Positions 3,879-59,367 of a stretch of 64,000 bases of DNA are shown in pieces. Made by a program: the position numbers and the translations under genes. The stretch's first letter is position 1, and every line of letters begins with the position of its first letter. A model generated the notes under the pieces. It did no database searches, was not told the DNA's origin, and was given only the letters and a program-made list of their open reading frames with translations. This DNA comes from Pseudomonas sp. ICMP 561. GTDB lineage: Bacteria > Pseudomonadota > Gammaproteobacteria > Pseudomonadales > Pseudomonadaceae. The stretch is taken from contig NZ_LKBT01000018.1 of assembly GCF_002699985.1 (NCBI RefSeq), forward strand, positions 1 to 64,000. The letters run 5' to 3'.

Positions 3879-3894
3879 AGATCACCTGAATGCA

Positions 3895-23195: not shown

Positions 23196-24545
23196 TCAAG
23201 CTCTTTTATGAAACGTTATCTTCCCCCAAATCAAACCTATGACTGCTGCAACCGAAGAGGCGGCCAGCACGCTGAGCTTGGCGGAGGACAGTAATGCAGC
23301 ATCGGAAAACGCCAACGATGCAATAAAAATAGACATAGTGAAGCCAATCCCTGCCAGCAGACCAACTAGCCCTACTCCACTCCACGTCACACCATCAGGC
23401 AACTTGCAGATGTTCAGTTTGACCAGAGCAAAGCTGGCCAGCATAACGCCCAACGGTTTTCCAAGCACCAACGCCAGCATCACGCCCATAAACACCTTCT
23501 GGGAAAGCGCCTCATCCAGATTGGCGCCCGCAAAGCTCACCCCGGCGTTAGCCAGTGCGAACAGGGGCATGACGCCAAAAGCCACCCAAGGGTGCAACCC
23601 AACCTGGATTCGCTGAACGGGTGGCAGCACTTCGCGCTGCGCGTGGCGCAATTGCTTGAGTGGTTCTGCGACGGCCTGCGGATTATCTTTGGCCTGAGAA
23701 AAGCGGTCCATTAACTCATGGAAGGTCCGCCCGATTGTTTCCAGTGGACGCTCCGTTGCGGGCTTGGAGTTCACCGGGGTCATGAGCCCAAGGATCACTC
23801 CCGCCAGCGTTGGATGAACTCCAGTCTTCAGCAGGCCAAACCAGACGATGGCACCCGGCACAACATAGGCATATGCCTTGCCTATGCCCATTCGCTGTAA
23901 AACCAATACCAGCGCCAAACCGCCCAACGCGACTACCAGCCCTAGATAATCCAGGCTCTCGGTGTAAAAAATCGCGATGATCAAAATCGCGACGATGTCA
24001 TCAATAATGGCCAGTGCCAACAGCAGAATCCGCACGCCACTTGGGATAGATTTCCCCAGCAAGGCGAGTACTCCGACGGCAAAAGCAATGTCAGTCGCGG
24101 TAGGCACAGCCCAGCCAGCACTCGCCTCGCTACCGTGATTAAGCAGCGTGTAGATGATCGCCGGCATCATGACACCGCCCAGCGCCGCCCCTAAAGGCAG
24201 TGTCGCGAGTTTCATATTCGCCAGTGCGCCGTCCTTGATCTCTTGGCGGATTTCAGCGCCAACCACCAAAAAGAAGATCGTCATCAGGCCATCGTTCACC
24301 AGAAAATGAAGTGAGCGGGAGACGCTGAAATCACCCACCCCCAAGGTGACCTGCGTGTGCCAGAAATGCTCATAGGATTCGGCGACCGGACTATTGGCCC
24401 AAATCAGCGCCGCCAAGGCCGCGAGCAAAAGTACGATCCCGCTGACCGCTTCAATATGAGAGAACCGCTCCAGCGCAGAAAACGCACGTTCGGTTAAAAC
24501 CTGAGGACGGGGAATAGCTGCAGAGGCCGAGTTTTTTTCAGACAC
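23196..24545 (-). CDS. nhaA: Na+/H+ antiporter NhaA (copy 1)
   Basis: A 449-residue inner-membrane antiporter exporting Na+ or Li+ in exchange for protons. The ion-binding aspartates are present in PTATDIAFAVG and LAIIDDIVAI, and the conserved lysine in LGKPLGV. It carries an insert of about 40 charged residues in the middle (around PLETIGRTFHELMDRF) that the second copy at 33456 lacks, so the two are not a recent duplication. The start is GTG, seven bases after GGAG; that ribosome site sits inside the candidate riboswitch at 24546-24622. The gene lies downstream of the ClC gene on the same strand. Confidence 0.95.
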   Translation of the reverse strand: MSEKNSASAAIPRPQVLTERAFSALERFSHIEAVSGIVLLLAALAALIWANSPVAESYEHFWHTQVTLGVGDFSVSRSLHFLVNDGLMTIFFLVVGAEIRQEIKDGALANMKLATLPLGAALGGVMMPAIIYTLLNHGSEASAGWAVPTATDIAFAVGVLALLGKSIPSGVRILLLALAIIDDIVAILIIAIFYTESLDYLGLVVALGGLALVLVLQRMGIGKAYAYVVPGAIVWFGLLKTGVHPTLAGVILGLMTPVNSKPATERPLETIGRTFHELMDRFSQAKDNPQAVAEPLKQLRHAQREVLPPVQRIQVGLHPWVAFGVMPLFALANAGVSFAGANLDEALSQKVFMGVMLALVLGKPLGVMLASFALVKLNICKLPDGVTWSGVGLVGLLAGIGFTMSIFIASLAFSDAALLSSAKLSVLAASSVAAVIGLIWGKITFHKRA

Positions 24546-24622
24546 GATAACGCTCCGTTGGCGGCCCGACCAACGTTTGAATTTAACCTGCGCAGTGCCG
24601 TATGCAACAACGCACCCAGCGC
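24546..24622 (-). promoter_or_regulatory. Candidate cation-sensing riboswitch of nhaA copy 1
   Basis: Reading toward the gene, this 77-nt leader shares the ordered blocks cgctgggtg, gcaggtt, ggtcgggccgcc and gttatcg with the leader of the other nhaA gene (33369-33455). A stem cgttgg/ccaacg encloses tcgggccg; an alternative stem aacg/cgtt would enclose the Shine-Dalgarno GGAG. Mutually exclusive helices over the ribosome site are a typical switch layout. nhaA-associated riboswitch classes that sense lithium have been described; class membership here needs a covariance-model search. Confidence 0.65.
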
Positions 24623-33368: not shown

Positions 33369-33455
33369 CATGCCCCGCTGGGTGTCACCGCAAATACGCG
33401 GCATGGCAGGTTTAACTTAGCGCAGGTCGGGCCGCCGCGCGGGGTTATCGCGCCT
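33369..33455 (+). promoter_or_regulatory. Candidate cation-sensing riboswitch of nhaA copy 2
   Basis: Contains the same ordered blocks as 24546-24622: cgctgggtg, gcaggtttaa, ggtcgggccgcc and ggttatcg, ending at the ATG. The stem atg(cc)ccgc / gcggcat closes the upper part; gcgcg (33437-33441) pairs with cgcgc (33449-33453), looping out the GGGG ribosome site directly before the start codon. Two unrelated nhaA genes with the same leader argue for a functional RNA rather than chance. The lithium/sodium class is inferred. Confidence 0.68.
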
Positions 33456-34721
33456 ATGAACCTGGATCCCTCGCGTCTTGAAAAAGACCATAGTCATCGT
33501 GCAACACTAGCTGCGCTGGCTTTTCTCACCCGTTTTTTCGCTGCCGAATCCGCTGGCGGCCTGATTTTGATGGCGGCTGCGTTTGCCGCGCTCGTCGTCG
33601 CGAACTCCTCATGGTCTGAAGCTTACTTTTCAACCCTGCATATCAAACTCATTGGTCTCTCGATCGAACATTGGGTCAACGATGGATTGATGGCTATTTT
33701 CTTCATGCTGGTTGGCCTCGAAATCAAGCGTGAAATGCTCGTGGGTCAGTTATCCAGCTGGAGCCAGCGCGCACTTCCAGGCTTTGCCGCACTGGGAGGT
33801 ATGCTCTTACCGGCATTGATCTACATTGCAATCAACTGGGGAAATCCTGAAACCCTGGGTGGTTGGGCAATTCCTGCGGCAACGGACATCGCCTTTGCGT
33901 TGGGCGTTTTGTCCCTGCTGGGCAAGCGCGTTCCTGTCTCTTTGAAAATTTTCCTGTCTGCTCTGGCGATTCTTGATGACCTTGGGGCAGTCGTTATCAT
34001 CGCACTGTTCTACACCAGCGGTTTATCCATCAGCATGCTTATGGCTTCGCTGGTCGTGATTGTTTTTCTGCTCGTGCTCAATCGTTGCGGCGTGAAGAGG
34101 CTTTGGCCTTACCTGATTGCGGGCGGTTTACTGTGGTTTTTCATGCTCCAGTCCGGCATTCACGCGACGTTGGCGGGAGTCATTCTCGCGCTCTGCATTC
34201 CGCTGGGTGATTCGAACAACGAGCGCAAGTCTCCACTTCTCTATCTGGAGGAAAAGCTGCATCCGTGGGTTGCTTTCGCCGTCGTGCCCGTCTTTGGTTT
34301 TGCCAATGCCGGAGTGTCTCTTGCAGGCATGTCACCCGGTAATCTGATTGATCCAGTGCCGCTGGGTGTAGCTTTGGGGCTTTTGCTGGGCAAGCAAGTG
34401 GGCGTGTTCGGTTTCTCCGCGCTGGCCATTCGTTCAGGTCTGGCAAAATTGCCGGAAGAATGTGGTTGGTTCCATCTATACGGCATAGCACTGCTATGCG
34501 GCATTGGCTTCACGATGAGCCTTTTCATCGGGGCACTGGCCTTTGCCGGAAATCCACTCCTGGTAGATGAGGTAAAGGTCGGTGTGTTACTCGGCTCAGT
34601 GCTTTCCGCTGCTCTAGGGGTTGCAGTTCTTCTCAGCGCCAGGCCGCTCCTGTTGGAGCCTGATATCAACCGGTCAGGCAGCCACGGACCCGATCAGCTC
34701 GATAAAGTAAGCGGCATATAG
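33456..34721 (+). CDS. nhaA: Na+/H+ antiporter NhaA (copy 2)
   Basis: A 421-residue antiporter with the key residues in [23 protein letters not shown] and the lysine of LLGKQVGV. It lacks the charged mid-protein insert of copy 1 and is closer in length to E. coli NhaA (388 residues). Divergent from the DUF294 gene and translated from an ATG whose ribosome site lies in a hairpin. A GC hairpin (ggcgggg ... ccccgtcgcc, about 34771-34793) downstream may end the transcript. It is the last gene of the repeat-flanked segment. Confidence 0.95.
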
Positions 34722-35097
34722 TGACCAATTGAGGTCTTCCAGATACAGGATCAAGTCTTCTGGCTACCCTGAAAGCGGCGGGGTTACTGCCCCGTCGCCA
34801 GTACCTTGGTCACACTTCACATTTCAAGCGCGTCAGCCAGTTCGATGCCGGGCTACCTGCGGAGCTTCGCAGGCTGGTGTGGCTGAGAATGAGCTGACCA
34901 GCTCTGGTGCTCTTTGTCTGCAAAGTGTCGTGCTCATCCAGTACACGACGGCGCACTGAATACCAGCCACGACTACCGAGGCCCGTTTCAGAAATCTCTA
35001 TTCGCGATCACGCGTACATCCAGTGTGAATGGGGGGCAAAAATGGGGGCATAATTCGTTTTTTTAGGAGGCAATTACCGCCCTAGAGCCAAGTCAAA
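34722..35097. other. Right junction of the repeat-flanked segment
   Basis: No convincing gene. At 35032-35051 lies tggggggcaaaaatgggggc, two G-rich words in direct order, 50 bp before the second repeat copy. Similar words (tgggggcat, tggggggcac) occur inside both repeat copies. Such motifs at element ends resemble arm-type binding sites of phage-like integrases; this is inference. Confidence 0.5.
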
Positions 35098-35272
35098 ATG
35101 TTTTTTGGGGATCCTGAGAGTCTTTAGAAGTCTCAGGACAGGCTATTTATCTGATTATTTCTGACTTTTTCATAGACCATGGAGCTCCATTCACTTCCTT
35201 TGGATCGCTACAGTGGGGGGCACACCCGAGGGCATGCTTTGGATGGTTTGAAACGGATGCCCCCAGCCTAAA
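35098..35272. repeat. Direct repeat copy 2 (candidate att site)
   Basis: Repeats the LysR 3' end and downstream DNA of 12942-13112: the first 75 bp are nearly identical, including the last codons and stop of LysR without the rest of that gene. Offset between copies is 22,156 bp. The four-gene helicase operon starts 165 bp further on. Confidence 0.85.
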
Positions 35273-35439
35273 GCTCGACAATCCCCTTCACGAAATATCA
35301 CTCGTGGCTGTTTCCAGCCGATGAAACGAACGCCCCCTCAGAAACGCTCTATCAACAAAACTTTTCGTAGCAGCGCACTGGCAAATAGGCGCATTGAGCA
35401 ATACCCTGCCCGTACCGACCCAACGTAACGAGCTGAAAC

Positions 35440-37272
35440 ATGTCAGGGATTGCCATATTTGAAAGCCCACGTTGGCTACGAGATCTTCTGCGCTTCTTAC
35501 CGCTGAAGAGCCAATTCGTCCTGTCAGGCAACATCCGCGACCTGCAGGCCAGTGAAGTGGCGCCCGGTACGGTGACTGCGCAGAGCTTCAACCAAACTCT
35601 CTGTAATGCCCTGCTTGATGCCGGCTACACCCAGGTTATCGCCTGGGATCCGGTGTCCGGTTTCCGGACAATCGACAAATCCGGCTCCACCCCTGAAGTC
35701 GGCCAGACGTTGCTTCAGGAGCTTGGCCTGACTCCGGTAAATGGCGCAGCACCCGCTGGTATCGATCTGCTGGGCACCACCCTGCCACGTTTGGTGGGTC
35801 GTGCTGGCGAACCTATCGCGCTGATCATCGATTTCGCCTCACGTCTAGTGGTTCGCAACGATTCGCTCAGCGCTGCTGAACACCAGCTCTTCACCCAGGC
35901 CTTGGTGCAATCCCATCAGGCTCGCAGTCGTCCGGCCACAGAGCTGCGCAAACCGTTCTTCAACACCCTGCTATGGCTGGTGGAAAAAGAAGGCGATTTG
36001 CCTGACTGGTTGCTGGTCGACAACCCGCGCCTGCGCCACATTCCCGTGTCCAAACCCGATCAATTGTCCCGCCGTGCATTGGCACCGGCCTTGCTCAAAG
36101 GGCTCAATGGCAGCCAGGGCGCAAGCGAAGTGGTCATGCGTCAGGCTGTGGACGCCTTAGTTCAGAACACCGAGGGATTGCTACTGCTCGATCTCAGTGC
36201 CATTGCGCAACTGGCGCGGGTCGAGGGTGTAGCCATGGAGCAGATTGCCGATGCGGTGCGCCGCTATAAAATTGGTGTCACCGAGGATCCGTGGCTGAAG
36301 ATCGACCGTCAGCGTATCCGGCATGCGGATGCGCTCGTCCACCAGCGAGTCAAAGGCCAGGAGCATGCGGTGACGCACATGCTCGACATCGTCAAGCGTG
36401 CCATGACAGGCGTCGGCGCCAGTCGCAAGGGCAACCGTCCACGGGGCGTAGCCTTTCTCGCGGGGCCGACCGGCGTAGGCAAGACCGAACTCGCCAAATC
36501 GATTACAAGCCTGCTGTTCGGCGACGAAAGTGCATATATCCGCTTCGACATGTCGGAATTCAGCGCCGAACATGCCGATCAACGCCTTATCGGCGCACCG
36601 CCCGGCTACATTGGCTATGACGTCGGCGGTGAGCTGACCAATGCTATCCGCGAGAAGCCGTTCAGCGTGGTGTTATTCGATGAAATCGAAAAAGCTCACC
36701 CTCGGATTCTCGACAAGTTCCTGCAGATCCTCGACGACGGAGTGCTGACTTCAGGCCGCGGTGATCGGGTGTACTTTTCGGAGGCACTGATCGTGTTCAC
36801 TTCCAACCTGGGGATCTATCGCCAGGGTGACAATGGCGAACGCGTTGCCAACGTTCTGCCGGGCGAAGCCTTCGAGCAAGTCCAAGACAAGGTGCACAGC
36901 GAAATCGACCGATATTTCAAGCTGGTGCTCAACCGGCCGGAAATCCTCAATCGAATCGGCGAGAACATCATCGTCTTCGACTTCATTCGCGAAGGCGTTG
37001 CAGTGCAAATCTTCGAACAGATGGTCAACGCCACCTTCGACGACCTGCAGGGACAGAACCTGTTTATCGAATTGGCCCCCCAGGCACGCCAGACACTACA
37101 CAACCTCTGTCTGCAGGACCTGTCAAACGGTGGCCGGGGCATACGCAACCAGTTAGAGGCACGCCTGCTCAATCCCCTGTCGCGGGCACTGTTCGATCAG
37201 GACGCGCAATCGGGGGAGCACTTCACGATCACCGAGTTGGGCATCACCGGACTGAAGATGGAACGTCGCTGA
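35440..37272 (+). CDS. AAA+ ATPase, Clp D2-like, with degenerate N-terminal module
   Basis: A 610-residue ATPase, first gene of a four-gene operon. The C-terminal half is a Clp/HSP100 D2-type module: Walker A GPTGVGKT (342-349), pore loop GYIGY (389-393), Walker B VVLFDEIEK (D414, E415), sensor 1 TSNLG, arginine-finger region LNRIGENI and a ClpB-type small domain. A GYxGY pore loop indicates polypeptide threading. The N-terminal half (about 20-260) keeps AAA-like strand patterns (QFVLSGNIRDL, IALIIDFASRLV) but has no Walker A lysine, so it looks like a dead ATPase or sensor domain. It stops 2 bp before the radical SAM gene. Role inferred as a remodelling motor of a defence-like complex; no described family recognised. 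Confidence 0.85.
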   Translation: MSGIAIFESPRWLRDLLRFLPLKSQFVLSGNIRDLQASEVAPGTVTAQSFNQTLCNALLDAGYTQVIAWDPVSGFRTIDKSGSTPEVGQTLLQELGLTPVNGAAPAGIDLLGTTLPRLVGRAGEPIALIIDFASRLVVRNDSLSAAEHQLFTQALVQSHQARSRPATELRKPFFNTLLWLVEKEGDLPDWLLVDNPRLRHIPVSKPDQLSRRALAPALLKGLNGSQGASEVVMRQAVDALVQNTEGLLLLDLSAIAQLARVEGVAMEQIADAVRRYKIGVTEDPWLKIDRQRIRHADALVHQRVKGQEHAVTHMLDIVKRAMTGVGASRKGNRPRGVAFLAGPTGVGKTELAKSITSLLFGDESAYIRFDMSEFSAEHADQRLIGAPPGYIGYDVGGELTNAIREKPFSVVLFDEIEKAHPRILDKFLQILDDGVLTSGRGDRVYFSEALIVFTSNLGIYRQGDNGERVANVLPGEAFEQVQDKVHSEIDRYFKLVLNRPEILNRIGENIIVFDFIREGVAVQIFEQMVNATFDDLQGQNLFIELAPQARQTLHNLCLQDLSNGGRGIRNQLEARLLNPLSRALFDQDAQSGEHFTITELGITGLKMERR

Positions 37273-37274
37273 AC

Positions 37275-37919
37275 ATGGACCTTAGCCTGTCGCGCATGCA
37301 TTTTCCGGTCACTACCCTAGGCCCAGGGCGGCGTATTGGTATCTGGTTCCAGGGCTGTAGCATCCGCTGTCCAGGCTGCATCTCTGCCGATACCTGGGGG
37401 CCTGGACATCGACGCTTGTCGCTGGAGCAACTGCTTGAACAGATAACCCCCTGGCTGCACGAGGCCGAAGGAATCACCATTTCCGGAGGGGAACCGTTCG
37501 ACCAGTTCGACGCCTTGCGATCACTACTCGAAGGCCTTCGTCGGCTCAGCGAGCTCGACATTCTGGTCTACAGTGGCTTCACCCTGGAGCAACTCGATGA
37601 GTCGTTGCTCCAGACCAAGGGTTTGATAGATGCCTTGATCAGCGACCCCTATATCGAAGCACTCAGTCAGACCATGGCTTTGCGCGGCAGTGACAATCAA
37701 CGCCTGAGCCTGCTCACACCACTGGGCCGGGCACGCCTGGGTCATTACGAACGCCTGCTCGAACCCACCGACAAGGCGCTCGACCTGATGTTTGACGAAA
37801 GTGGCAGCGTCTGGATGGCCGGCATACCACGACGTGACGACCTATTGCGCTTACGCGATCTTCTGCATGAGCAAGGCCATCATTTACAGATCAGCGCACA
37901 CGCGTCGCGACGCCGCTGA
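37275..37919 (+). CDS. Radical SAM protein, NrdG/activase-like
   Basis: A 214-residue small radical SAM enzyme. The cluster motif is GCSIRCPGC (C28-x3-C32-x2-C35), the SAM-binding GGE appears as ISGGEPFDQ, and the YSGF segment of NrdG-type activases is present. NrdG activases normally install a glycyl radical on the anaerobic ribonucleotide reductase NrdD, but no NrdD or other glycyl-radical partner is encoded here. It lies 2 bp after the AAA+ gene and 14 bp before the giant helicase, so it must act with them. It could modify an operon partner or a nucleotide, as viperins do; the substrate is unknown. Confidence 0.85.
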   Translation: MDLSLSRMHFPVTTLGPGRRIGIWFQGCSIRCPGCISADTWGPGHRRLSLEQLLEQITPWLHEAEGITISGGEPFDQFDALRSLLEGLRRLSELDILVYSGFTLEQLDESLLQTKGLIDALISDPYIEALSQTMALRGSDNQRLSLLTPLGRARLGHYERLLEPTDKALDLMFDESGSVWMAGIPRRDDLLRLRDLLHEQGHHLQISAHASRRR

Positions 37920-37933
37920 GTGGAGTACACCCC

Positions 37934-40900
37934 ATGATACGTTTCTGCCCCAACTGCAAAACCGAACGCGCCCTCGAGGAAATGTTCTGCGAAGGGCTCA
38001 TTCAGGAACGCACCTGCGGCTGGGACCTCGCTGGCGAACCCATTCATGCCGCCGGCTGGCGGCCGCAAGCCGTCGTCACTGAGGAGCCCCTCCCGCAGGT
38101 CAACCCTACTCAGGGGAATGCCCCTGACCTGCTCTGCAAAAATGGGCACCCGATGGTCGATGGCGACCTGATGTGCCTTGAGTGTGGCAGCTCACCTGCG
38201 CAAGCAACGTCCTACGACGCCCAGCCAGACAGCTGCGAACCAGAGGCCCCCACCCAAACCCTGATCGATGGCTGGCGCCTGATCCGTCAGATCAGCATCA
38301 CCGACGGTGTGCGAGAACGATACCTCGCCGAGCACGAGGAAACCGCACGACAGGCGGTCCTGACCTTGTATCGAGCCGGCGCCGAACCGGACCCGGCGAT
38401 CTATGATGTGATCCGTCGACTACCACGCGAACACGTACCCGAAATCATTGCCACCGGCCGCTGGGATGACCGTGCCTATGAGGTCATTGAAGAACTCACC
38501 GGCGGAACGCTGGCAGAACTTGGCAGCGTAATTCGCGACAGCGCCAGCGTGCACCACGTGGTCAACGAATTGGGCCTCGCGCTGCATGCTTTCAACGAGG
38601 CCGGCCTGCGCCATCGTGACCTGCGCCCAGCCAGCCTGCTGGTACGTTCCCGCGAACCGCTGGACCTGGTCATCAGCGGCTTCGGCTCGGCACGCCTGTC
38701 CGAGTTCGACCTGGACATCGTGTCGCCACTGGAAACCAGCCGCTACATGGCGCCCGAAGCCATCGCAGGCGGCGTTGCGGCTGCCTCGGACTGGTGGAGT
38801 CTGGGCATGATCCTGCTCGAGCAACTGACCCAGGGCGCCTGCTTTGACGGCATAAATGCCAATGCATTTCTTATTCACGTGCTGGCCAACGGAGTACCGA
38901 TCCCCGACGAACTCGACCCGCGCCTGAACCTGCTGCTGCGAGGTCTGCTGGCACGCGACCGTCATCAGCGCTGGCAATGGCAGCAGGTCAAAGGCTGGCT
39001 CAACGGTATTGCGGTCGAGGCTCCGGCCTCTTCCGTCCAGCAAACGGACGATGGTGAAGGCGCCACCCTACTGCTGGGCGATCGCCGCTTCCACAAGGCA
39101 GGCGTATTCGCCCTGGCGGCAGCACAGGCGGATAATTGGCAACAGGCTCTGGACCATTTGCTTCGCGGTGTGATCGTGACGTGGGCCGAGCAGGTCGGTC
39201 TCGCCTCTTCCCTGGTCGCCGGTTTGCGTCAGGTCGTTCAGCACGAAGGGATTGAGGACGACTTCCGTCTCATGCTGGCGCTGAGAATCCTCAATCCAGA
39301 AATCCCGTTGATTCATCGTGGCGACATCGTCACACCAGGATGGCTACTGGAGCACCCACTGGAAGGCTACCGCCTGATCAGCGGATCGGTCCCTGACCTG
39401 CTTGAGCAATTGCAGACCGACAACTGGTTGTCGCGTCTCAAATCCCGCGCCGAAAACGTACGTCAGCGTGCCCTGCACCAACACATCGAGTTGGTCGAAG
39501 AGCAACTGCGGATATTCCTGCTATCGACCTCGCGAGCCAAGCTGTCCACGCAATGGCAAGAGCGCCAACGCCTGTTTCCAGACACCGACCATCCGGGACT
39601 GAGCTCTCTGTCGGAGCGCCGGGTGATCGCCGAAGAAGACCTGATCGTGCTGCTCAGCGCGGCGATCAGTCAGTTTCGTTCCGGGGCCTCAATCGTAGAG
39701 GCCGCCGCCGAGCTGGCCAGGGCTGCCGATGTCGGGTGGTTCGACTCCGAAGCGGCGACCCAACTGCTGTTGCATTCGCGACTTGAGCTGTACCGAAGTG
39801 TCGATGAGCGCATCCAAGGCTTTGCCCGTTGTGGCGTGCCGGTAGTGGACGAGTGGGCCGAGCAGTTCCGCCTGGAGCGACGTATGCCATTGGCCCAGGC
39901 ACTGGTTTTGCTGGCCATCCCGCCCAGTCATTGGCTGGAACCACAGAAACAACAGTACGTCTCTCAGATCCTCGACTTCTTCGAGAAGAAGGTGGTGACC
40001 GCAGTGATGCGCGGGCCACTGGTGCGTATGAGCATCGGCAAGACCACCGCACGGGTCGACATCCGTGAGCTGAACAGCGAGCGCAGTCCGGCCGCGGCTT
40101 TGCTCGATCACCTGCTGCAACGTAATGCCCGGGCAGTGAACCTAGACCCAGAGAGTTTTCAGCTCAACGGCCAGCTGGAATCGCGCATGCATGCCCTGTA
40201 CCGGCAAAGCGCGCTGTACAAACGCGACACCGGCATCGACGGCCTGTACCTGGGCTTCCCTTTCCTGCTCAATCGCGACCCTCGCGGCACCACGCGTACG
40301 CGGATTATCCCGCTGCTGCTGTGGCCGGTGAAGCTGCTGCTGGAGCTGGGCTCTCGTGGTCACGCCGCCTTGGCGTTCGACAGTGAGCGTGAGGAAGTGC
40401 GGCTCAACCCCGCGCTGGAAAGCGTGCTCGGCGCCGAAACATGCAAACGCTGGCGCAAGATCGCCGATGAGCTGCTGGGCCGCTCGTCAATTCGTGCGGC
40501 GGATGTGATGGACGCCTTCGGCATGCTCGCCACCATTCGCTCACGCGCCCTTGGCAACCTGCCCGCCAGCACCGTGGAGATCGCGCCCTACCAAGACGAG
40601 CTGGACTGCGCGGCGGTGCTGTTTCACGTGACCTTCATGGGGCAAGCCATCGGAGAAGACCTGCGCCAACTGAAAACCCTGTCCCCCGCCGGTACCGGTC
40701 TGGAAACGGCGTTGCGCCTCAAGACTGCCGACGAAACCGGGCACGAGGCACCGCCAGGCGAGCTGCAACGCTACTTCACCGTGGCCAGCGATCCCTCCCA
40801 GGAAGCGGCCGTGATCCAGGCCCGACAAAGCCCGGGACTGCTGGTCGAGGGACCGCCCGGAACTGGCAAGAGCCAGACCATCGTCAATATGGTCGCCGAC

Positions 40901-43900
40901 GCCATCGGCCGCCAGCGCAGCTTGCTTATCGTCTGCCAGAAGCATGCGGCGCTTGAAGTGGTGTACAAACGCCTGGTCGCCGAAGGCCTTGGCCAACGCA
41001 TCGTCATGCTCAATGACGTCAACCGCGACCGAGAGCCAGTCATCCGCGGTATTCGAGAACAACTGGAAAGCCTGTTCACGAACGGCAGCCAGGCTCAGGG
41101 CTGGCAGCGCCAGCGCGAACAGGTCGCGGCTCGCATCGAGGCCCTGGAGGGTGAGCTTGACCGCTTCCACCAAAGCCTGCATCGCCTGGATGAAAATACC
41201 GGCCTCAGTTATCGCAGGCTGCTCGGCGAGCTGATTGAATTGGAATCAGGCCCTGCCCCGCTCGAGTTTCCGGCCCTGCGCCAACGCTTGGCCTCCCTGG
41301 ACCTCGCTAGCCTGACCCGCTTGGAAGAAAGCTGCGCCCCTCTGATTCGCCTGTGGTTGCCCGCACGCTACGAAGGCAGTCCATTGGCCCAGTTACAGTC
41401 GTTCGCGGCCGACCGGGCCACTTTGCAGACCTTCACCGACAATCTGCACAGTTTCACTCAGGCCGAAAACAACCGTCAGGCCACGTTGCAAGCACACCCC
41501 GCCAGCTTCGAGATCGATGACCCCACGCCGTACCGCAACTGGATGACGACCCATGTCACGACCCTGCTAGGCCTGAAGCAAGAGCAACGTCTGCGTCTTG
41601 CGCGCTGGCTGCCGCTATTCCGTAGTCGCGAAGAGGGCCAGCGCCCACGGGGCGAGTCGATTCTCGGTGAACTGCAGCAATTGGATCAGCAACTCGGCCA
41701 ACTGGATCAGGATCACTACGTCCCCGCCTTGTCACCGGCACTCTGCCTGCTCGAAAACAAGGCCCTCAGGCATCTGGATCAAGACTGTACCAAGGTTATG
41801 GCTGCCCGATCCTGGTTGGCGAACATCAATCCGCTGCATCTACTACGTCGCAAGCGACTGCGCAACTTCCTACAGGGCCAGGGGGAAAGCCGTGTTATTG
41901 AAGCACTACCAACCCTACAGGCAGCCATCCGCCTTGAAAGCCAGTGGCGGCCATTGCGCACCGAGCTGAGTACCCTGCACCAGGCGTTGGAACTGGAAGC
42001 TGTGAGTAAGCAGGCTTGCCTGGAATTGATCAGCTTCGTGAAGAGCGACATCCGCCACCTGCTGGAAATCCAGGCACTGGCGCTGGCCTTAGCGCAATCG
42101 CCTCGCGCCCGACAGGCCGACGAGGCGGCCCTCGCTGGTGACAAACAGCACCTCGAGGCGCTGCTCAGTGATCTTGATGCTTCGCTCATGCGCCATGGCG
42201 TACGCCAATCCAGCCTCGAACAACTCAAGACTCTCAGCGACTGGCTGGGGGATGAGTTGGTGAGACAACTGCAGCACGCCGTCGAACACAACCTGAGCAA
42301 TCAGCTGAGCCTTGATCGTCTGCGTGAGGCACTGCCCTTCCTGGCCGCCTATCAGTCATTCCGCGGGCGCGCCGGTCAGTTGACGACAGCCGACCTAGAA
42401 TTGCTCGCACTGCTGCGCCAACGCCAGGAGCAGTTGGACAGCATTGCACCCGAGCAACTTGAAGCCGAAGTGCGGCGCCTGCTCAACCGCGAAGCCCGCC
42501 TGGGCTGGAAACACCGCGTAGAGCAAACCAATCCCGAACTGCTGCTCAGCCAGGACGAAGCCCGCGCCAAAGTCGTCAGCCTCGCGCAAGCCGACGCACA
42601 GATGCGGCTGCTCAATCGTGAGCTGCTGGCCAAAGACATCAACCTCGATAACCTGGGCAATCGCAAACAATGGGAGGATGTTACCCGCCTGACTGGCAAA
42701 CGCTCGCGGCGCCTGCGTGAATTCATCGAACTGGGTAGTAACCTCGGTTTGATGAGCCTGCGTCCGGTGTGGCTGATGAACCCGGACGTCGCCAGTCGTG
42801 TACTGCCGCTCAAGGCAGGCCTGTTCGATACTGTCATCTATGACGAAGCCTCGCAGATGCCGGTTGAGTTCGCCCTGCCGACCCTGTTCCGCGGTCAGGT
42901 CACTGTTGTCAGCGGCGATGAAAAGCAAATGCCGCCGACGGCATTCTTTTCCAGTCGCATCGAAAGCGACGAAGCCGAAGTGTTTGACGGCGACGAACCT
43001 GATGAAGACGCGGATGAGGAACAGCGCGAAGCGTTCGAAGACACTTGGAACCGTCGTGAGATCAAAGATTGCCCCGACCTGCTGCAGCTGGCGCGCAACG
43101 CCCTGCCCAGCACCACATTGCAGATCCACTACCGTTCGGCCTACCGTGAACTGATCGGCTTTTCCAACGCCTCGTTCTATGGCAATCGCCTGAACGTTCC
43201 GGTCCGTCACCCGCAGGCGAATATCCAGCGCATTAAGCCGCTGGAGCTGATCCAGGTCGGCGGGCTGTATCAGAACCAGAGTAACGCCCAGGAAGCCGAA
43301 CGGGTCGTCGAGTACCTGAGCGAATTGTGGCAGAAGCCCTACGACCAGCGCCCTTCAGTGGGTGTCGTCACCTTCAACCGCAAGCAGGCTGACCTCATCG
43401 AGGAGCACTTGGAGCAGCGTGCAGAGCAGGATGAACTGTTCCGTGCCGCCTACGCCCAGGAGCGCGAGCGCAGCGAAGACGGCGAGGACATGTCGGTGTT
43501 CGTCAAGAACGTGGAGAACGTGCAGGGCGATGAACGCGACATCATCGTCTTCTCCTCCACCTTCGGGCGCAACAGCCAAGGCACGTTCCGCCGTAGCTTC
43601 GGCGTACTGGGGCAGACAGGGGGCGAACGACGCCTGAACGTGGCGGTGACCCGCGCGCGGCGCAAGGTGGTGATGATCACGTCGATGCCAATCGCCGATA
43701 TTTCGGACATGCTAAACACGCACCGCGCGCCCAACAGCCCGAGAGACTATCTGCAAGGCTATCTGGAATATGCTCGCGCGCTTTCCTCGGGCGAATTCAG
43801 CAGCAGCACCAAGTTGCTGGAGCGCCTGCAGACCGACCGCAGCAGCCAGCGTCGTGAGCAAGGTCAGCAAAGTGATGGTTTTGTCAGGCTGGTCGGTGAA

Positions 43901-44242
43901 TTCATTCATTCCCTGGGATGGCAGGCGGCTCCCGCCAGTGAAGGCGACGCTTTCGGGCTCGATTTCGCCATCGAGAATCCTGGCACGGGCCTGTATGCCA
44001 TCGGCATCGAGTGCGATGCGCCTTGCCACAATCTTCTGGAACGTGCCCGCGCCCGGGAAATTTGGCGCCCATCCGTGCTGCACCGCGCCATCCCGCACAT
44101 CCATCGTGTGTCGTCGCAAGACTGGTATCACAGCGGCGACAGGGAACGTTCACGGCTGCGTGAAGCAATCGAACAAGCCATGCAAGTCGAGCAGCCGCTG
44201 CAACCCGGCCCTACTTCAGTTGATACGGAAATCTGCCAATGA
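37934..44242 (+). CDS. Zinc-ribbon/pseudokinase/SF1 helicase/nuclease-like fusion protein
   Basis: A 2102-residue protein. Residues 1-90 hold two zinc-binding modules (C5, C8, C19, C28; then C68, H72, C81, C84). About 105-370 is a protein-kinase fold with HRD (227-229) and APE retained, but the DFG aspartate is glycine (GFG, 249-251), the HRDxxxxN asparagine is serine, and no glycine loop or VAIK lysine is visible: a pseudokinase. A long helical region follows. The Upf1/Dna2-like SF1 helicase has GPPGTGKS (973-980), DEAS (1637-1640), GDEKQMPP, QGDERDI and AVTRARR (about 1904-1910), with a large coiled insert between motifs I and II. The last 170 residues resemble the MTES_1575/Vsr-like nuclease (D2010, E2026-C-D2028). 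Helicase-nuclease fusions of this kind occur in anti-phage systems such as Hhe. The 3' end overlaps the next gene by ATGA. Confidence 0.85.
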   Translation: MIRFCPNCKTERALEEMFCEGLIQERTCGWDLAGEPIHAAGWRPQAVVTEEPLPQVNPTQGNAPDLLCKNGHPMVDGDLMCLECGSSPAQATSYDAQPDSCEPEAPTQTLIDGWRLIRQISITDGVRERYLAEHEETARQAVLTLYRAGAEPDPAIYDVIRRLPREHVPEIIATGRWDDRAYEVIEELTGGTLAELGSVIRDSASVHHVVNELGLALHAFNEAGLRHRDLRPASLLVRSREPLDLVISGFGSARLSEFDLDIVSPLETSRYMAPEAIAGGVAAASDWWSLGMILLEQLTQGACFDGINANAFLIHVLANGVPIPDELDPRLNLLLRGLLARDRHQRWQWQQVKGWLNGIAVEAPASSVQQTDDGEGATLLLGDRRFHKAGVFALAAAQADNWQQALDHLLRGVIVTWAEQVGLASSLVAGLRQVVQHEGIEDDFRLMLALRILNPEIPLIHRGDIVTPGWLLEHPLEGYRLISGSVPDLLEQLQTDNWLSRLKSRAENVRQRALHQHIELVEEQLRIFLLSTSRAKLSTQWQERQRLFPDTDHPGLSSLSERRVIAEEDLIVLLSAAISQFRSGASIVEAAAELARAADVGWFDSEAATQLLLHSRLELYRSVDERIQGFARCGVPVVDEWAEQFRLERRMPLAQALVLLAIPPSHWLEPQKQQYVSQILDFFEKKVVTAVMRGPLVRMSIGKTTARVDIRELNSERSPAAALLDHLLQRNARAVNLDPESFQLNGQLESRMHALYRQSALYKRDTGIDGLYLGFPFLLNRDPRGTTRTRIIPLLLWPVKLLLELGSRGHAALAFDSEREEVRLNPALESVLGAETCKRWRKIADELLGRSSIRAADVMDAFGMLATIRSRALGNLPASTVEIAPYQDELDCAAVLFHVTFMGQAIGEDLRQLKTLSPAGTGLETALRLKTADETGHEAPPGELQRYFTVASDPSQEAAVIQARQSPGLLVEGPPGTGKSQTIVNMVADAIGRQRSLLIVCQKHAALEVVYKRLVAEGLGQRIVMLNDVNRDREPVIRGIREQLESLFTNGSQAQGWQRQREQVAARIEALEGELDRFHQSLHRLDENTGLSYRRLLGELIELESGPAPLEFPALRQRLASLDLASLTRLEESCAPLIRLWLPARYEGSPLAQLQSFAADRATLQTFTDNLHSFTQAENNRQATLQAHPASFEIDDPTPYRNWMTTHVTTLLGLKQEQRLRLARWLPLFRSREEGQRPRGESILGELQQLDQQLGQLDQDHYVPALSPALCLLENKALRHLDQDCTKVMAARSWLANINPLHLLRRKRLRNFLQGQGESRVIEALPTLQAAIRLESQWRPLRTELSTLHQALELEAVSKQACLELISFVKSDIRHLLEIQALALALAQSPRARQADEAALAGDKQHLEALLSDLDASLMRHGVRQSSLEQLKTLSDWLGDELVRQLQHAVEHNLSNQLSLDRLREALPFLAAYQSFRGRAGQLTTADLELLALLRQRQEQLDSIAPEQLEAEVRRLLNREARLGWKHRVEQTNPELLLSQDEARAKVVSLAQADAQMRLLNRELLAKDINLDNLGNRKQWEDVTRLTGKRSRRLREFIELGSNLGLMSLRPVWLMNPDVASRVLPLKAGLFDTVIYDEASQMPVEFALPTLFRGQVTVVSGDEKQMPPTAFFSSRIESDEAEVFDGDEPDEDADEEQREAFEDTWNRREIKDCPDLLQLARNALPSTTLQIHYRSAYRELIGFSNASFYGNRLNVPVRHPQANIQRIKPLELIQVGGLYQNQSNAQEAERVVEYLSELWQKPYDQRPSVGVVTFNRKQADLIEEHLEQRAEQDELFRAAYAQERERSEDGEDMSVFVKNVENVQGDERDIIVFSSTFGRNSQGTFRRSFGVLGQTGGERRLNVAVTRARRKVVMITSMPIADISDMLNTHRAPNSPRDYLQGYLEYARALSSGEFSSSTKLLERLQTDRSSQRREQGQQSDGFVRLVGEFIHSLGWQAAPASEGDAFGLDFAIENPGTGLYAIGIECDAPCHNLLERARAREIWRPSVLHRAIPHIHRVSSQDWYHSGDRERSRLREAIEQAMQVEQPLQPGPTSVDTEICQ

Positions 44243-45597
44243 GTGGTCCCAAGGTCGTTCGCATTGTTACCCGCGAAGAAATCATCGCCATTTGTGAAGG
44301 CCACCTGCAACGCCTGGAGCGCGCCGTGAATCGCTGGCAAACACAGGCCACGAGGCTTGGTGAGCTCAGTGAACAGGAGCGCTCCGCCTCCCTGGAGCGA
44401 CACGCTCGCCTTCGCGCTCTGCTGGCAGAAGACCAATTGACGGAACTGCAGAAGGCCGTACCAGTTGAAATCGAGCACCTGCGCCTTGATCTGGAGAACC
44501 GCGAAGAACGCGCGATCATTCGTACCGCCGAGCGACGCCAACGCGACCGACGCGTCCAGGAAAACGCAAAAACCCTGCTTGATGCTTTGCAAACTAACCC
44601 CGAAAGCGTCGATCAAGCCTTGCTGGAGACCCTCTCACAATTGGCCAGCGGCGCCAGTCGTGAAGATGCCGAACGTCTGCTGGCCGAGGGTTTCGCCCAC
44701 TTGAGCAAGGCAAACGAGGAGCCAACTCTGAGCGATACCCAACGCGCCCTGGCGCAGCAACTCAAGGTCGACGAACCCGAGGTTTCCCTGCGCGAATGGA
44801 TTGCGGCCCGGGAACCGGATGCAACGCGCGACGCACGGCTGCTACGCATTGACCGCCACATCGTGGAGCTGCAACTGTTGCAAGGTGCTGAATGTGCCGC
44901 GCCGTTCCTCTTGGCACTGGAAAGAGCTGAAACGGAAACCGATGCCAAGCGGCGCAACCTGCTGTTTGACAGCCTAGTACTCGACCTCGCCGCGTCCACC
45001 CGAAACTTCCGACGCCAACGCGAGTGTCTCGAACAACTGCAGGATCTGGCCAGCGAAGTCAAAACCTACACAGGCATCGAACACGCGACCCTGCTCGATC
45101 ATATTGGCGCTTTTACAACCGACACCGAGCTTTCGATAACCATCGGATTGATCGAGCAGTGTAAAGCGCTTATCGCTTCCCACTTACAGGACCAGGCCGC
45201 CCTCGCCCGCCGCGAAGCCGTGCTCGGCGGCTTGGCTAGCCTCGGCTACGAAGTACGCGAAGGCATGGCGACTGCCTGGGCGCAAAATGGCAAGGTCGTG
45301 CTGCGCAAAACCGCTACTCCCGGCTACGGAGTGGAAGTGGGTGGCAGAGCCGACAATGGCCGTCTGCAGGTTCGCGCCATAGCCCTCAGCAGCGATCGCG
45401 ACAAGGCGCGGGATCGCGACATTGAGACCATCTGGTGCGGCGAATTCCAGCGACTGCAGGACTTATTGAAAGACAAAGGCAGCGAGTTACTCATTGAGCG
45501 TGCGCTTTCGGTAGGCGAAGTCCCACTTAAAGAAACGAATATTTCCGAGCCGGGCGTAGAAACAATTACTGCTCAGCAAAAGACACTTCATAAATGA
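44239..45597 (+). CDS. Coiled-coil protein, last gene of the helicase operon
   Basis: A 452-residue protein with no recognised enzyme domain. Residues 1-20 (MSGPKVVRIVTREEII) look like a conserved cap; about 20-110 are strongly predicted coiled coil rich in Glu, Arg, Leu and Gln; a helical middle follows; the last 120 residues (VLGGLASLGYEVREGM ... NGKVVLRKTA) look like a small mixed alpha/beta domain. Its ATG overlaps the helicase stop codon, implying coupled translation and a shared complex. It could be a scaffold or a sensor. Function unknown. Confidence 0.8.
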   Translation: MSGPKVVRIVTREEIIAICEGHLQRLERAVNRWQTQATRLGELSEQERSASLERHARLRALLAEDQLTELQKAVPVEIEHLRLDLENREERAIIRTAERRQRDRRVQENAKTLLDALQTNPESVDQALLETLSQLASGASREDAERLLAEGFAHLSKANEEPTLSDTQRALAQQLKVDEPEVSLREWIAAREPDATRDARLLRIDRHIVELQLLQGAECAAPFLLALERAETETDAKRRNLLFDSLVLDLAASTRNFRRQRECLEQLQDLASEVKTYTGIEHATLLDHIGAFTTDTELSITIGLIEQCKALIASHLQDQAALARREAVLGGLASLGYEVREGMATAWAQNGKVVLRKTATPGYGVEVGGRADNGRLQVRAIALSSDRDKARDRDIETIWCGEFQRLQDLLKDKGSELLIERALSVGEVPLKETNISEPGVETITAQQKTLHK

Positions 45598-45853
45598 ACC
45601 GCTAACTACAGGCGCCTTGACCTCAATCGAACTCCAGCCCTTGAGGGTGTCCTTCCTGGAAACTGAACGTCCAAGACAGGGTGAGTCTTTGGCCGATTCT
45701 GCTGAAAAAGCCCGAATTTAAGGCTGTAAGAAGGCGACGTTGGCCCTCGTTTCAGAACCTGGTCACCACGTTGCGTGGCTTTCCGGTTCTGCATTGACCG
45801 TTGCAGCTTGGTTAATAGGTTAATTTGAGGGTTTTTGCTGATTCCGGGCGTAC

Positions 45854-46015
45854 CTATCCCGTGGTCAGCGGCCCTTGTGAGGTCAGTTTCGCCAGTGGTC
45901 TTAAATTCTGTACCGCAGCGGCCAAGGTAAATTCATCGTTTGCACCGCTCATTCCTCGTAGCCTTAATCGATCCAGTTTCAGGATTCGTTTGAGATGAGC
46001 GAACAGGACACTACA
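45854..46015 (-). pseudogene. Transposase C-terminal remnant (IS1182-like)
   Basis: A 54-codon frame on the minus strand ending TTG* reads AHLKRILKLDRLRLRG, then GANDEFTLAAAVQNLR: the C-terminus of a DDE transposase of the IS1182/IS5-like group in Pseudomonas. A stop lies directly upstream and the catalytic domain is missing. The motif gattctgctgaaaaag at 45696-45711, 140 bp beyond the stop, resembles an element end. It marks the right side of the four-gene operon. The rest of 45598-46072 has no supported gene. Confidence 0.7.
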
Positions 46016-46072
46016 TTTTCATGGCTAGATGCTCTGCCCCCAAGAACTCAGAGCATCAGCTCAACAACAGAC

Positions 46073-46636
46073 TCATCGCTCAACAAACGGCAGCGGTGCA
46101 TCAGTATCACGACCCACCGCGAACACATTCAAAGTCATCGCCACCAACGAGTAATACCCGAACACCCCGACAAGCTCTACAAGGCCAGGCTCTCCGAACA
46201 CCTGAATTGCGTTCGCATACAAATCCTCGTTAATCCGACGCGTCTCGTACAGTGACTTGCACAGGCTGTAGACCAACTCTTCGTCCTCGCGCGCAAATTG
46301 CGGGACTACTTGTAGTCGCAGTGCTTCAATAACAGAGTCTGTGACTCCCGCCGCACGTGCGATCGGCTCATGAATTTGCCACTCGGCCTGCGACTGCCAC
46401 CACGCTGCGGTGAACAGTATCGCCAACTCCGTGAGGCGCAACTCGAGTCGCGTGCCATATCGACAGAACGCTCCCAGTTGCTGGGCATGACTGGCCAGTT
46501 CGGGACTGTGGATCCAGGCCAGAAAAGGTCCATCCAGGTTGCCCCTCGGGCCCGCAAGAATGTCCTTGAGTACCGAACGCTGGGCTTCATCCATGGATGC
46601 TTCAGTCAGTTCGCTCAGCCGCGATTGAATGACCAT
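46073..46636 (-). CDS. Carboxymuconolactone decarboxylase-family protein
   Basis: A 187-residue all-helical protein of the CMD/AhpD superfamily. The core motif ELAILFTAAWWQSQAEWQIHEP corresponds to the family's E..(x)..H helix pair, but the CxxC redox cysteines of AhpD are absent, so it is a decarboxylase-like or uncharacterised member rather than a peroxidase partner. ATG at 46636, ten bases after GAGG. It is flanked on both sides by gene remnants, so its original operon context is lost. Confidence 0.88.
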   Translation of the reverse strand: MVIQSRLSELTEASMDEAQRSVLKDILAGPRGNLDGPFLAWIHSPELASHAQQLGAFCRYGTRLELRLTELAILFTAAWWQSQAEWQIHEPIARAAGVTDSVIEALRLQVVPQFAREDEELVYSLCKSLYETRRINEDLYANAIQVFGEPGLVELVGVFGYYSLVAMTLNVFAVGRDTDAPLPFVER

Positions 46637-57431: not shown

Positions 57432-58049
57432 ATGTCCTCCCCTTTCACCCAAGTCCATGTACCGGCCGGGCACGGTCGCACGTTCGAAGTCCGCAGCGGC
57501 CAGTTCATCACGGTAATCGACCGGGACGGCCAGCAAGCCGCCGACTTCGTCGCCATCGTCAACGGTCAGCCCGAGCAATATCTTTCGCCCACCCACACCC
57601 GTCGACGTTTGAACTCGCTGTTTTTTGCCATCGGCGACAGCCTCTACTCAAACGCCGATGAGCCTTTATTGCAGGTACTGCATGACACCGTTGGTGTGCA
57701 CGACGCCAACGTTCCAGCCTGTGACTGCACGCGCTTCAGCGTTGACTTCGGGGTCGACGGCCATCGCAATTGCCTGGACAACATGCACGAAGGACTGAGC
57801 CATTACGGAGTGCTGCCGGTAAACGTGCCCGAGCCTTTCAACCTGTTCCAGAACGGCCCGGTAACCGCCGACTGCCGGATGCAGGTCACCGATCCGACCA
57901 GCAAGGCAGGAGACAGAATCGTCTTTCGTGCCTTGAAAGACCTGGTCTGCGCGGTGTCCTCCTGTCCACAGGACATCATTCCGGGTAACGGGCTGCTCGT
58001 TACTCCCATCGACATCGTCATTTCCGATGACGAACCGTCGCACGCCTGA
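57432..58049 (+). CDS. DUF1989 protein (urea-carboxylase-associated family), A
   Basis: About 205 residues of DUF1989, the family of urea-carboxylase-associated proteins that includes the carboxyguanidine deiminase subunits CgdA and CgdB. The core metal and catalytic region is intact: GVHDANVPACDCTRF, GHRNCLDNMHEGL and SSCPQDIIPGN. The start is ambiguous between an ATG overlapping the previous stop (57420) and the ATG at 57432 after GAGA; the latter is preferred. It overlaps the open frame of the next DUF1989 gene slightly. Confidence 0.88.
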   Translation: MSSPFTQVHVPAGHGRTFEVRSGQFITVIDRDGQQAADFVAIVNGQPEQYLSPTHTRRRLNSLFFAIGDSLYSNADEPLLQVLHDTVGVHDANVPACDCTRFSVDFGVDGHRNCLDNMHEGLSHYGVLPVNVPEPFNLFQNGPVTADCRMQVTDPTSKAGDRIVFRALKDLVCAVSSCPQDIIPGNGLLVTPIDIVISDDEPSHA

Positions 58050-58059
58050 GGCCCCTCCC

Positions 58060-58704
58060 ATGCTGATCATGAAAGAAGCCATCGAAACCCGAGCACCATT
58101 GCCACCCCAGTCCGTCAGGGTACCAGCCGCCAGCGCCGGATCAATCCTCGTCAAGCGCGGCCAGTTGCTGCGTGTTACAGCCCTGCAAGACGGCGCCGTG
58201 GCAAGCCTGTTCGGCTTTAGCGAACTGGAGCCCAGCGTGCATTTGTCGGTGCATCACACCCGGGTGTTCAGCAACTCGTACGTGCTGGGTGCTGGCATGC
58301 GCATGGTCAATAATCGTCGACGTCCGGTTATGGTGCTGGGCAAGGACAGCGTCGGCAAACATGACCTGCTGATGCCGGCCTCCACGACCGCCTTCCTGGC
58401 AGCCAACGGCTATCGAGACCAGAAAGGCTGTGTCGAATCGCTCAAAGCAGAGCTGCAACGTCTCGGCCGTCAGCAACCCAAACTGCCGGACCCGATCAAC
58501 CTGTTCATGAGCGTGCAGCTGGATCAGCAAGGAACGCTGAAGCCGTTACCGAATACGGTCAAAGCCGGTGACTCGGTGACCTGTCGCGTGGTGCTGGACA
58601 CGCTGTTCGTGGTGTCCACCTGCTGCACGGGCATCGCGGGCAATGATCAACCCGGCGCAGTCGAATTGTCAGTGGCTGAAGACCTCAGTGAATTTCCGGT
58701 TTAA
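58060..58704 (+). CDS. DUF1989 protein B, degenerate in the core motif
   Basis: A 214-residue DUF1989 relative in which the conserved core has diverged: KHDLLMPASTTAFL replaces the HDxxxxACDxxRY consensus, and QKGCVESLKAEL replaces HxNCxDNxxEGL; CCTG stands where its siblings have CPQD. It is likely a non-catalytic partner of one of the other two copies. The ATG at 58060 is chosen since the 11 residues upstream run through the previous gene's stop region. Confidence 0.85.
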   Translation: MLIMKEAIETRAPLPPQSVRVPAASAGSILVKRGQLLRVTALQDGAVASLFGFSELEPSVHLSVHHTRVFSNSYVLGAGMRMVNNRRRPVMVLGKDSVGKHDLLMPASTTAFLAANGYRDQKGCVESLKAELQRLGRQQPKLPDPINLFMSVQLDQQGTLKPLPNTVKAGDSVTCRVVLDTLFVVSTCCTGIAGNDQPGAVELSVAEDLSEFPV

Positions 58705-58707
58705 TCC

Positions 58708-59367
58708 ATGAGTTCATACGCGCAACTGCTCAATGCCCTGCCTGATCTTGCGAACGGGCTGTTGGTCACGCTGGAACTGACGTTGCTTGCCGCCGTTACC
58801 AGCTTCGGCATGGGCCATGTCATCTGGTGGCTGCGCGGACGATCGACGCCAATGTGGCGCGGCCTTGGGCATTTGTACGTCAGCCTGATGCGTGGGGTCC
58901 CGTCGATTGTCCAGTTGTTCATCGTGTTCTTCTCTCTGCCCCTTATCGGGTTGGGTGGCAAACCCTTGCTGGCTGCGGTACTCGCCATAGGCCTGAACAG
59001 TGCCGCGTATGTCGCGGAAATCCTGCGCGCCAACTACCGCAACCTGCCCGGCGGCCAAACCGAAGCGTCTTCGGCGCTCGGGCTCTCAGCCTTTGAAACG
59101 TGGTGGCATGTCTCGGCACCGCAAGCCTTGCGTGCCAGCCTGCCCGCGCTGGTCAACGAGTTCACCCTGGTGGTCAAGACCACGCCATTGGCGTCAGTGG
59201 TGGCAGTGACCGAACTGACCTACGCCGGGCAACTGGTGATCGCTCGCACCTACGAAGCCACCCCGGTGCTGGCGATCGTCGTCGCCGGTTACCTGCTGAT
59301 TTGCTGGCCGACACTCAAGCTCGCGCGACGCCTGGAAAGTCGCTTCAACCGCTCCAGGAGGCAATGA
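58708..59367 (+). CDS. ABC transporter permease, His/Glu/Gln type (1)
   Basis: A 219-residue inner-membrane permease of the polar amino acid family, five helices. The EAA loop appears as GQTEASSALGLSAFETWWHVSAPQA. It starts 3 bp after the DUF1989-B stop and its stop overlaps the next permease start. Works with the second permease and the binding protein at 56572. Confidence 0.93.
   Translation: MSSYAQLLNALPDLANGLLVTLELTLLAAVTSFGMGHVIWWLRGRSTPMWRGLGHLYVSLMRGVPSIVQLFIVFFSLPLIGLGGKPLLAAVLAIGLNSAAYVAEILRANYRNLPGGQTEASSALGLSAFETWWHVSAPQALRASLPALVNEFTLVVKTTPLASVVAVTELTYAGQLVIARTYEATPVLAIVVAGYLLICWPTLKLARRLESRFNRSRRQ

Follow-up and report, generated by a model that had tools for sequence, protein, structure and literature searches.

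The 64,000-nucleotide stretch of Pseudomonas sp. ICMP 561 analysed here (contig NZ_LKBT01000018.1, positions 1 to 64,000; hereafter the window) contains four plus-strand open reading frames, p1 to p4, which fill positions 35440-45597 and are packed with gaps of 2 bp (p1/p2) and 14 bp (p2/p3) and a 4-bp ATGA overlap (p3/p4). The same four genes were chosen by a gene caller based on codon usage, for which p3 itself had been the training sequence; their predicted products are a Clp-like motor, a radical SAM protein, a pseudokinase-helicase-nuclease and a helical protein (Table 1). An earlier, sequence-only reading of this DNA had taken the four packed genes for one unit, which was confirmed by the gaps and the overlap and by the order p1-p2-p3-p4, kept at 77 of the best 80 p3 loci. 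These loci came from a scan of GTDB genome contigs with a four-member p3 profile (A1) that returned 425 relatives (460 pattern matches), the best 80 of the 425 being examined.

Table 1. The four genes and the sequence features beside them (window coordinates)
Feature	Position	Strand	Description
p1	35440-37272	+	610 aa; Pfam AAA_2 and ClpB_D2-small
p2	37275-37919	+	214 aa; Pfam Fer4_12 and Radical_SAM
p3	37934-44242	+	2102 aa; Pfam Pkinase, DUF4011, AAA_11/AAA_12 and MTES_1575 nuclease
p4	44239-45597	+	452 aa; no Pfam family above cut-off
Common upstream stretch	35318-35439	+	left edge of the moving unit, probable promoter/5' leader; conserved against L017, L018 and L019
204-bp repeat	35098-35301; other copy 12942-13143		copies 88% identical
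Transposase remnant DDE_Tnp_1_6	45857-46018	-	right of the operon; E 2.8e-4, below the Pfam cut-off

The unit was interrupted by contig ends at two loci (L034 and L063), and a real exception was found in Saezia (L090), where p3 stands without p1, p2 and p4 within 10 kb on each side; at 7040-16423 of this Saezia sanguinis locus the partnerless p3 adjoins a Lon protease gene. Judged by the record titles, the hosts comprise Pseudomonas, Xanthomonadaceae, Burkholderiales, Neisseriales, Gilliamella, Rhizobiales, Sphingomonadales and a Simkania metagenome-assembled genome, which we take to represent the alpha-, beta- and gammaproteobacteria and one Chlamydiota. To the question whether the four families occur together beyond Pseudomonas the answer is thus yes, in order and in distant hosts, and the homologues are not scattered. 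Four more complete copies were found in Caballeronia, on two Rhizobium plasmids and in genome G154. On a Rhizobium plasmid (L016, 15515-22029) p3 is split over two frames, this copy being probably in decay, and in G154 (L015) genes for a hybrid histidine kinase (821-5083) and a 573-aa protein of unknown kind (5080-6801) lie directly upstream with 4-bp overlaps. Over 76 members, with L022, L026 and L045 excluded, the pairwise identities of p1 to p4 co-varied (Spearman 0.67-0.85, relatedness not removed). The distribution is narrow in numbers: within the genus, 9 of 199 genomes, counting the window's own, gave a match to p4, but two of these are 49-residue matches, which leaves 7; within the phylum 2 of 299 genomes did so, again with the own genome included. 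A profile of the first AAA+ domain (D1) of p1 matched 8 of 398 phylum genomes, own included, and 8 plasmid records, all from Rhizobium or Caballeronia, of which the three examined (L008, L009 and L016) hold the four genes; in IMG/VR it found a single locus, with p1 at the contig end.

Near-identical cassettes lie at different loci in four Pseudomonas. Between the window and L017, L018 and L019, p1 is 94-97% and p3 94-96% identical, while a blastn comparison (E<=1e-10) of 7.5 kb upstream and 8 kb downstream of these four copies showed that only the last 90-122 bp before p1 are common to their flanks, the window matching the other three there at 89-95% identity over 91-122 bp. Since near-identical copies share so little of their surroundings, the cassette moves by itself, and the mobility proposed from the sequence alone is thereby borne out. 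A sigma-70-like site was looked for in the common upstream stretch and none was found. More distant copies of p3 are 74% (Stenotrophomonas rhizophila) and 71% (P. protegens) identical to that of the window.

The first protein, p1, is predicted to be an Hsp100/Clp-like AAA+ protein with a degenerate D1 (about residues 1-300) and an active-type second domain (D2). The Walker A and Walker B motifs, Arg505 and the GGRG of sensor 2 in D2 were each present in 82 of 82 members, and the D2 pore loop is of the ClpB type, reading GYVG in 70 of these members and GYIG in 12. D1 is without a P-loop, GN..D standing in the place of Walker A, and a Clp_N domain had no Pfam match in p1 at E<=0.1. The AlphaFold2 model of p1 (predicted local distance difference test score, pLDDT, 84) was aligned by VIA-align over residues 7-610 with ClpC (9gi1; Z 27.4, root-mean-square deviation 8.4, 488 aligned), the aligned part of which begins at ClpC residue 183, and with the ClpB D2 domain alone (4fcv; Z 25.6, root-mean-square deviation 3.2, 293 aligned). 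The label "Clp-like" given to p1 earlier was thus apt as to the Hsp100 family, and is put more exactly as a degenerate D1 joined to a putatively active D2. Only one full-length p1 is present in the window genome, the four remaining matches being partial, confined to the AAA module and part of longer frames elsewhere.

The second protein, p2, reads as a radical SAM protein similar to NrdG and the pyruvate formate-lyase (PFL) activase. Its CxxxCxxC and GGEP motifs were found in 82 of 82 members, and its nearest solved structure is that of pyruvate formate-lyase 1-activating enzyme (3c8f, E 1.1e-8). Its score against the NrdG equivalog, 75.9 bits, is under the cut-off of 126.1 bits, and the Pfam scan found no glycyl-radical family in the operon proteins. 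Phage records gave 1682 matches to p2, none spanning more than 80% of its length; among the 20 listed, the informative annotations were class III ribonucleotide reductase activase and the rest were unannotated or hypothetical. A plasmid search gave 75 records, and many of the 40 listed were annotated as NrdG or 4Fe-4S protein. Nucleotide-modifying radical SAM enzymes have known roles in immunity, and p2 might likewise act on nucleic acid or a nucleotide in a viperin-like or base-modifying manner, marking self or poisoning foreign DNA, with p3 reading the mark. The p2 homologue of the plasmid variant described below does match pVip weakly (E 5.6e-6), but the p2 of the window is closest to activases acting on proteins (NrdG, PFL-activating enzyme), is only 214 aa long and had no PADLOC match at E<=0.1, and we regard a nucleotide-directed p2 as very improbable.

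The large protein p3 is predicted to combine zinc ribbons, a pseudokinase, DUF4011, an Upf1/SMUBP-2-like superfamily 1 (SF1) helicase and a Vsr-like (MTES_1575) nuclease. Its catalytic motifs are intact across 83 members: Walker A and B of the helicase are kept in all of them (A1639 in 82), R1909 of motif VI in 80, with lysine in the other 3, the nuclease residues D2010, E2026, H2032 and R2041 in all 83 and D2028 in 82, and the zinc ligands in 82-83. The helicase part is nearest to SMUBP-2 (4b3g, E 9.4e-12). In the kinase domain HRD is mostly kept, the DFG-site aspartate is present in only 2 of the 83 members and no lysine is listed at the VAIK-like positions; because of these two losses the domain is a pseudokinase, just as the sequence-only reading had called it. 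By analogy, the pseudokinase/zinc-ribbon half may serve as a regulator.

The last protein, p4, starts with MSGPKVVRIVTREE and consists of long helices, probably a coiled coil, with a small C-terminal alpha/beta domain. Within this domain G364, E366, E396, C400 and K431 are invariant in an alignment of 63 rows (A5), and G364 and C400 occur in 79 of 79 ungapped members. The AlphaFold2 model has a pLDDT of 90, and p4 gave no match in the PDB at E<=0.001. That p4 is a small glycyl-radical protein would be a guess: despite the conserved G364 and C400, no Gly_radical family was found in Pfam and no fold match was obtained.

The motor-radical pair p1 and p2 recurs with the helicase and the nuclease swapped. 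In a second layout, carried by plasmids of five genera (Moellerella, with one of six records examined, Polaromonas, Photobacterium, Acinetobacter and Leisingera), the gene order is SF1 helicase, PIN protein, helical protein, p1' and p2', the last two of which are 33.5-36.3% identical to p1 over 604-635 aligned columns, nearly its full length, and 29-33% identical to p2 over 161-191 aligned columns. The helicase of the Moellerella variant matches MkoA (E 7e-102), more closely than p3 does. Other arrangements were seen in Aristaeella (L013), with genes for a PDC-S37 helicase (1258 bits), a kinase, a protein starting MSGPK, an FHA protein, a radical SAM protein, an AAA protein and a phosphatase, and in genome G010 (L133), where a 422-aa gene in a p4-like position stands with p1, p2 and FHA, PP2C, kinase and FGE-sulfatase genes. 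Several further observations were made around such loci. In Photobacterium (L140, 574-2642) and Acinetobacter (L141, 13910-15892) the plasmid variant is adjoined by extra radical SAM genes, and a gene with Phage_Mu_F and ADP-ribosyltransferase domains (L134, 7453-8664) lies near a divergent p1 homologue. Rhodococcus and Paenibacillus plasmids carry AAA+/DUF2997/radical SAM (L011, 4252-7989) and AAA+/DUF1257/DUF2997/radical SAM sets (L012, 7676-10543), possibly a further branch of the AAA+-radical SAM pairing, and to these we presume Ycf35 and Ycf46 of plastids to be related.

A cysteine at the start of the last helix in several proteins had suggested by eye that the C-terminal domain of p4 is akin to DUF1257 (Ycf35), DUF2997 and the helical proteins found in other layouts, but this kinship found no support in HHalign. 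In a home-made profile shuffle test, p4 reached z 1.7 against the plasmid-variant helical protein (equalled by 11 of 120 shuffles), 1.4 against L133 (10 of 120), 0.1 against L013, -0.6 against L134, -0.5 against L010, -0.1 against DUF1257 and -0.7 against DUF2997. The intended negatives, the C-termini of p2 and p3, gave z 6.5 and 2.9, so the test does not discriminate and was dropped as evidence; its sole standout was the pair of plasmid-variant and L134 helical proteins (z 7.8).

As to the surroundings in the window, the operon had been placed behind a candidate attachment (att) repeat and next to an insertion-sequence remnant, as in a defence island. The repeat is indeed present, but it was rejected as an att site bounding the operon, for the 204-bp pair brackets a segment to the left of the operon and not the operon itself. 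A whole-window search found no third copy, and the direct repeats within 34500-46200 are short and chance-like (the 20 largest of at least 60 families). Some related genomes carry several stretches akin to the 204-bp repeat, spaced 13-68 kb apart, which could be island end sequences. The remnant match is weak, and related sequence is found elsewhere in relatives. The island setting itself is thin: on reading of their translations, the near neighbours resemble NhaA, a CBS/cNMP protein, a LysR regulator and a transporter, and one resembles a CMD-family protein (weak Pfam match, under the cut-off). Two nhaA-I riboswitch matches (24556-24617, minus strand; 33380-33439, plus strand) each precede an NhaA-like gene, and these two genes (23196-24545 and 33456-34721) cluster as paralogues. 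Paralogous neighbour pairs also lie within 57432-60029, namely 57432/58060, with a third relative elsewhere in the window, and 58708/59364.

A defence role of the cassette appears fairly probable to us, supported but unproven. The helicase-nuclease half of p3 (residues 946-2087) scored 492 bits against PDC-S37 and also matched antiphage_ProA (NF058533), and p3 matched MkoA (E 1.5e-47), the best stretch being the helicase part. Such resemblances could mean that p3 defends alone in the manner of PDC-S37, Hhe or Mokosh, with p1, p2 and p4 as accessory regulators or self-protection; PDC-S37 and Hhe presumably act as single proteins, and the Saezia p3 stands without its partners. We find this improbable, however, for p1, p2 and p4 accompany p3 at the 77 loci with their catalytic residues kept, and in the plasmid layout it is p1 and p2 that persist while helicase and nuclease change. 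The flanks of the loci were scanned with PADLOC models using 116 hand-picked genes, mostly the nearest on each side, out of 218 candidates, from which seven context-repeating loci, genes shorter than 180 or longer than 800 aa and any genes in excess of two on a side had been excluded; 108 of 113 genes from three Pseudomonas genomes served as control. At E<=1e-40, 23 models under nine names (GajB, OloB, LmuA, AbiEi, RTasHel, PDC-S06, PDC-S15, PDC-S20 and DrmD) matched, each in one of the 116 genes, as against none of the 108 control genes. The DrmD match was false, since the gene encodes an IstB transposition protein, and the other eight names need not stand for eight proteins; the PDC-S06 neighbour was checked and lies at L041. 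At E<=1e-10, 136 models matched the flank genes and 10 the control, where mad2 was found in 4 genes and IetA, mad3, ZorB, TRIP13 and PDC-M21C in one each; the best control match (8.1e-37) fell just short of the 1e-40 line.

Several points weigh against defence or against parts of this reading. The scores of p3 against the curated models, 501.9 bits for ProA and 314.8 bits for Hhe (over residues 1364-2075), are far under their cut-offs of 1500 and 2000 bits. The neighbour count is small, comes from hand-picked genes and depends on a 1e-40 line of our own choosing, and the control genomes were not matched by taxon. A homology of p4 to the helical proteins of other layouts was not demonstrable by HHalign or by the shuffle test, their equivalence being one of position only, and the target of p2 within the cassette is one that we infer. 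At seven chlororaphis/protegens-type Pseudomonas loci (L026-L029, L031, L042 and L086) the cassette always sits in the same context, as few defence genes do. Finally, PMC10250203 reports a DUF4011 gene in every P. aeruginosa isolate, as part of the core right flank of the hotspot cDHS1 rather than as hotspot cargo.

According to the same paper, this right flank consists of the DUF4011 gene PA14_RS11765, a radical SAM gene beside it and a small hypothetical gene, and ihfA is a left-flank gene. In P. aeruginosa PA7 (L095), which carries p1 to p4, about 20 kb separate p4 (about 2.540 Mb) from ihfA (2519379), and P. otitidis (L024) has a tRNA-Pro 7.4 kb beyond p4. The operon therefore very probably borders cDHS1 and is core there. 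We take PA2725-PA2728 to be the PAO1 orthologues. The DUF4011 gene is thus core in P. aeruginosa, whereas p4 is patchy in the genus (7 of 199). Defence, which the sequence-only reading had offered with reserve, has gained from the related defence helicases, some defence neighbours and the related plasmid set and has lost by the core position in P. aeruginosa; together with the fixed context at seven loci, that position also means that the genes are more than accessory ones. Both observations would suit a core device for nucleic-acid and protein quality control that only borders the hotspot, in which the helicase-nuclease would resolve damaged or stalled complexes, the Clp-like protein clear the protein bound to them and p2 repair or mark that protein, and all 8 genomes checked did contain one full-length p1 alongside further matches of Clp-type AAA. 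The patchy occurrence in genus and phylum, the presence of the same cassette at different loci in close relatives and the related set on conjugative plasmids speak against such a housekeeping device, which we consider rather unlikely.

On balance, we lean towards p1 to p4 being a self-contained, horizontally moving four-gene machine, most likely anti-phage or anti-plasmid. In such a machine p3 would be the effector, its SF1 helicase and Vsr-like nuclease being held in check by the zinc-ribbon/pseudokinase half. The radical SAM protein p2 would equip a partner protein with a radical or with a modification made by one. The likeliest target, and also an adaptor, would be p4 with its long helical body: alone among the partners it has no known activity, and its compact C-terminal domain carries a conserved Gly and Cys. 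With its one live tier, p1 would then remodel or thread that partner, or else an inhibitor or an invader protein, and so license or reset the nuclease. Extended to the other layouts, this suggests, as a tentative possibility, a new class of immunity in which p1 and p2 are a reusable control module and a radical or radical-made mark on the helical partner, which the p1 unfoldase reads or takes off, switches on interchangeable helicase-nuclease effectors of Vsr or PIN type; if true, no defence effector controlled through protein radicals would, to our knowledge, have been seen before. Should the cassette serve immunity, it would couple a helicase-nuclease to radical chemistry and protein unfolding, a coupling absent from every system that our searches turned up, and the boundary-marker genes of a P. 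aeruginosa defence hotspot would be an immune machine themselves. If it does not, there is still a 10-kb cassette, patchy in its inheritance and conserved in its catalytic sites, for which no function is known.

The combination had been thought not to have been described before, and this held: it had no match in PADLOC 2.0 or NCBIfam 20 systems, and the literature searched contained no recognisable paper on it. Compared with ClpB and ClpC, p1 matches the D1+D2 core and has the ClpB-type pore loop, but it lacks ClpN and the D1 Walker A, and the genome carries its other Clp-type AAA genes separately. With NrdG and the PFL activase p2 shares the radical SAM fold and CxxxCxxC, yet it scores below the equivalog cut-offs and its operon is without a glycyl-radical family. 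PDC-S37 and ProA, for the latter of which no paper was found in the literature searched, resemble p3 in the SF1 helicase with an MTES_1575 nuclease end, to which p3 adds zinc ribbons, a pseudokinase and three fixed partners. Hhe, which p3 matches over the stretch given above, is a DUF4011 helicase with a Vsr-like nuclease and presumably carries a HEPN domain; HEPN had no Pfam match in p3 at E<=0.1, and no fold search was made for it. Mokosh (MkoA/MkoC) is likened to p3 by the kinase-type domain with an MkoA-related SF1 helicase, which we believe MkoA to hold in one protein. It differs in what we take to be a PLD-type nuclease partner or fusion, no PLD family being found in p1 to p4 (Pfam, E<=0.1), and Clp, radical SAM and p4 are presumably not part of it. 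The FtsH ternary (vWA-MoxR) systems (PMC7159879) have an AAA+ protein with a dead first and a live second ATPase domain and, in a subset, a radical SAM enzyme whose presumed substrate is a peptide effector, much as p1 is predicted to pair one dead and one live domain and has p2 as partner; their AAA is of the FtsH and not the Clp type, and no vWA or MoxR family was found by Pfam in p1 to p4. Among the literature searched, only PMC10250203 puts such genes in a defence context: the cDHS1 right flank has DUF4011 and radical SAM genes opposite ihfA, as in PA7 (the comparison being with PA7 and not PA14), but in the available text they serve as boundary markers only, and "ClpB" and "AAA" do not occur in its main text. 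The parts of the cassette are of known kinds, and their combination matched no known one in the searches made.

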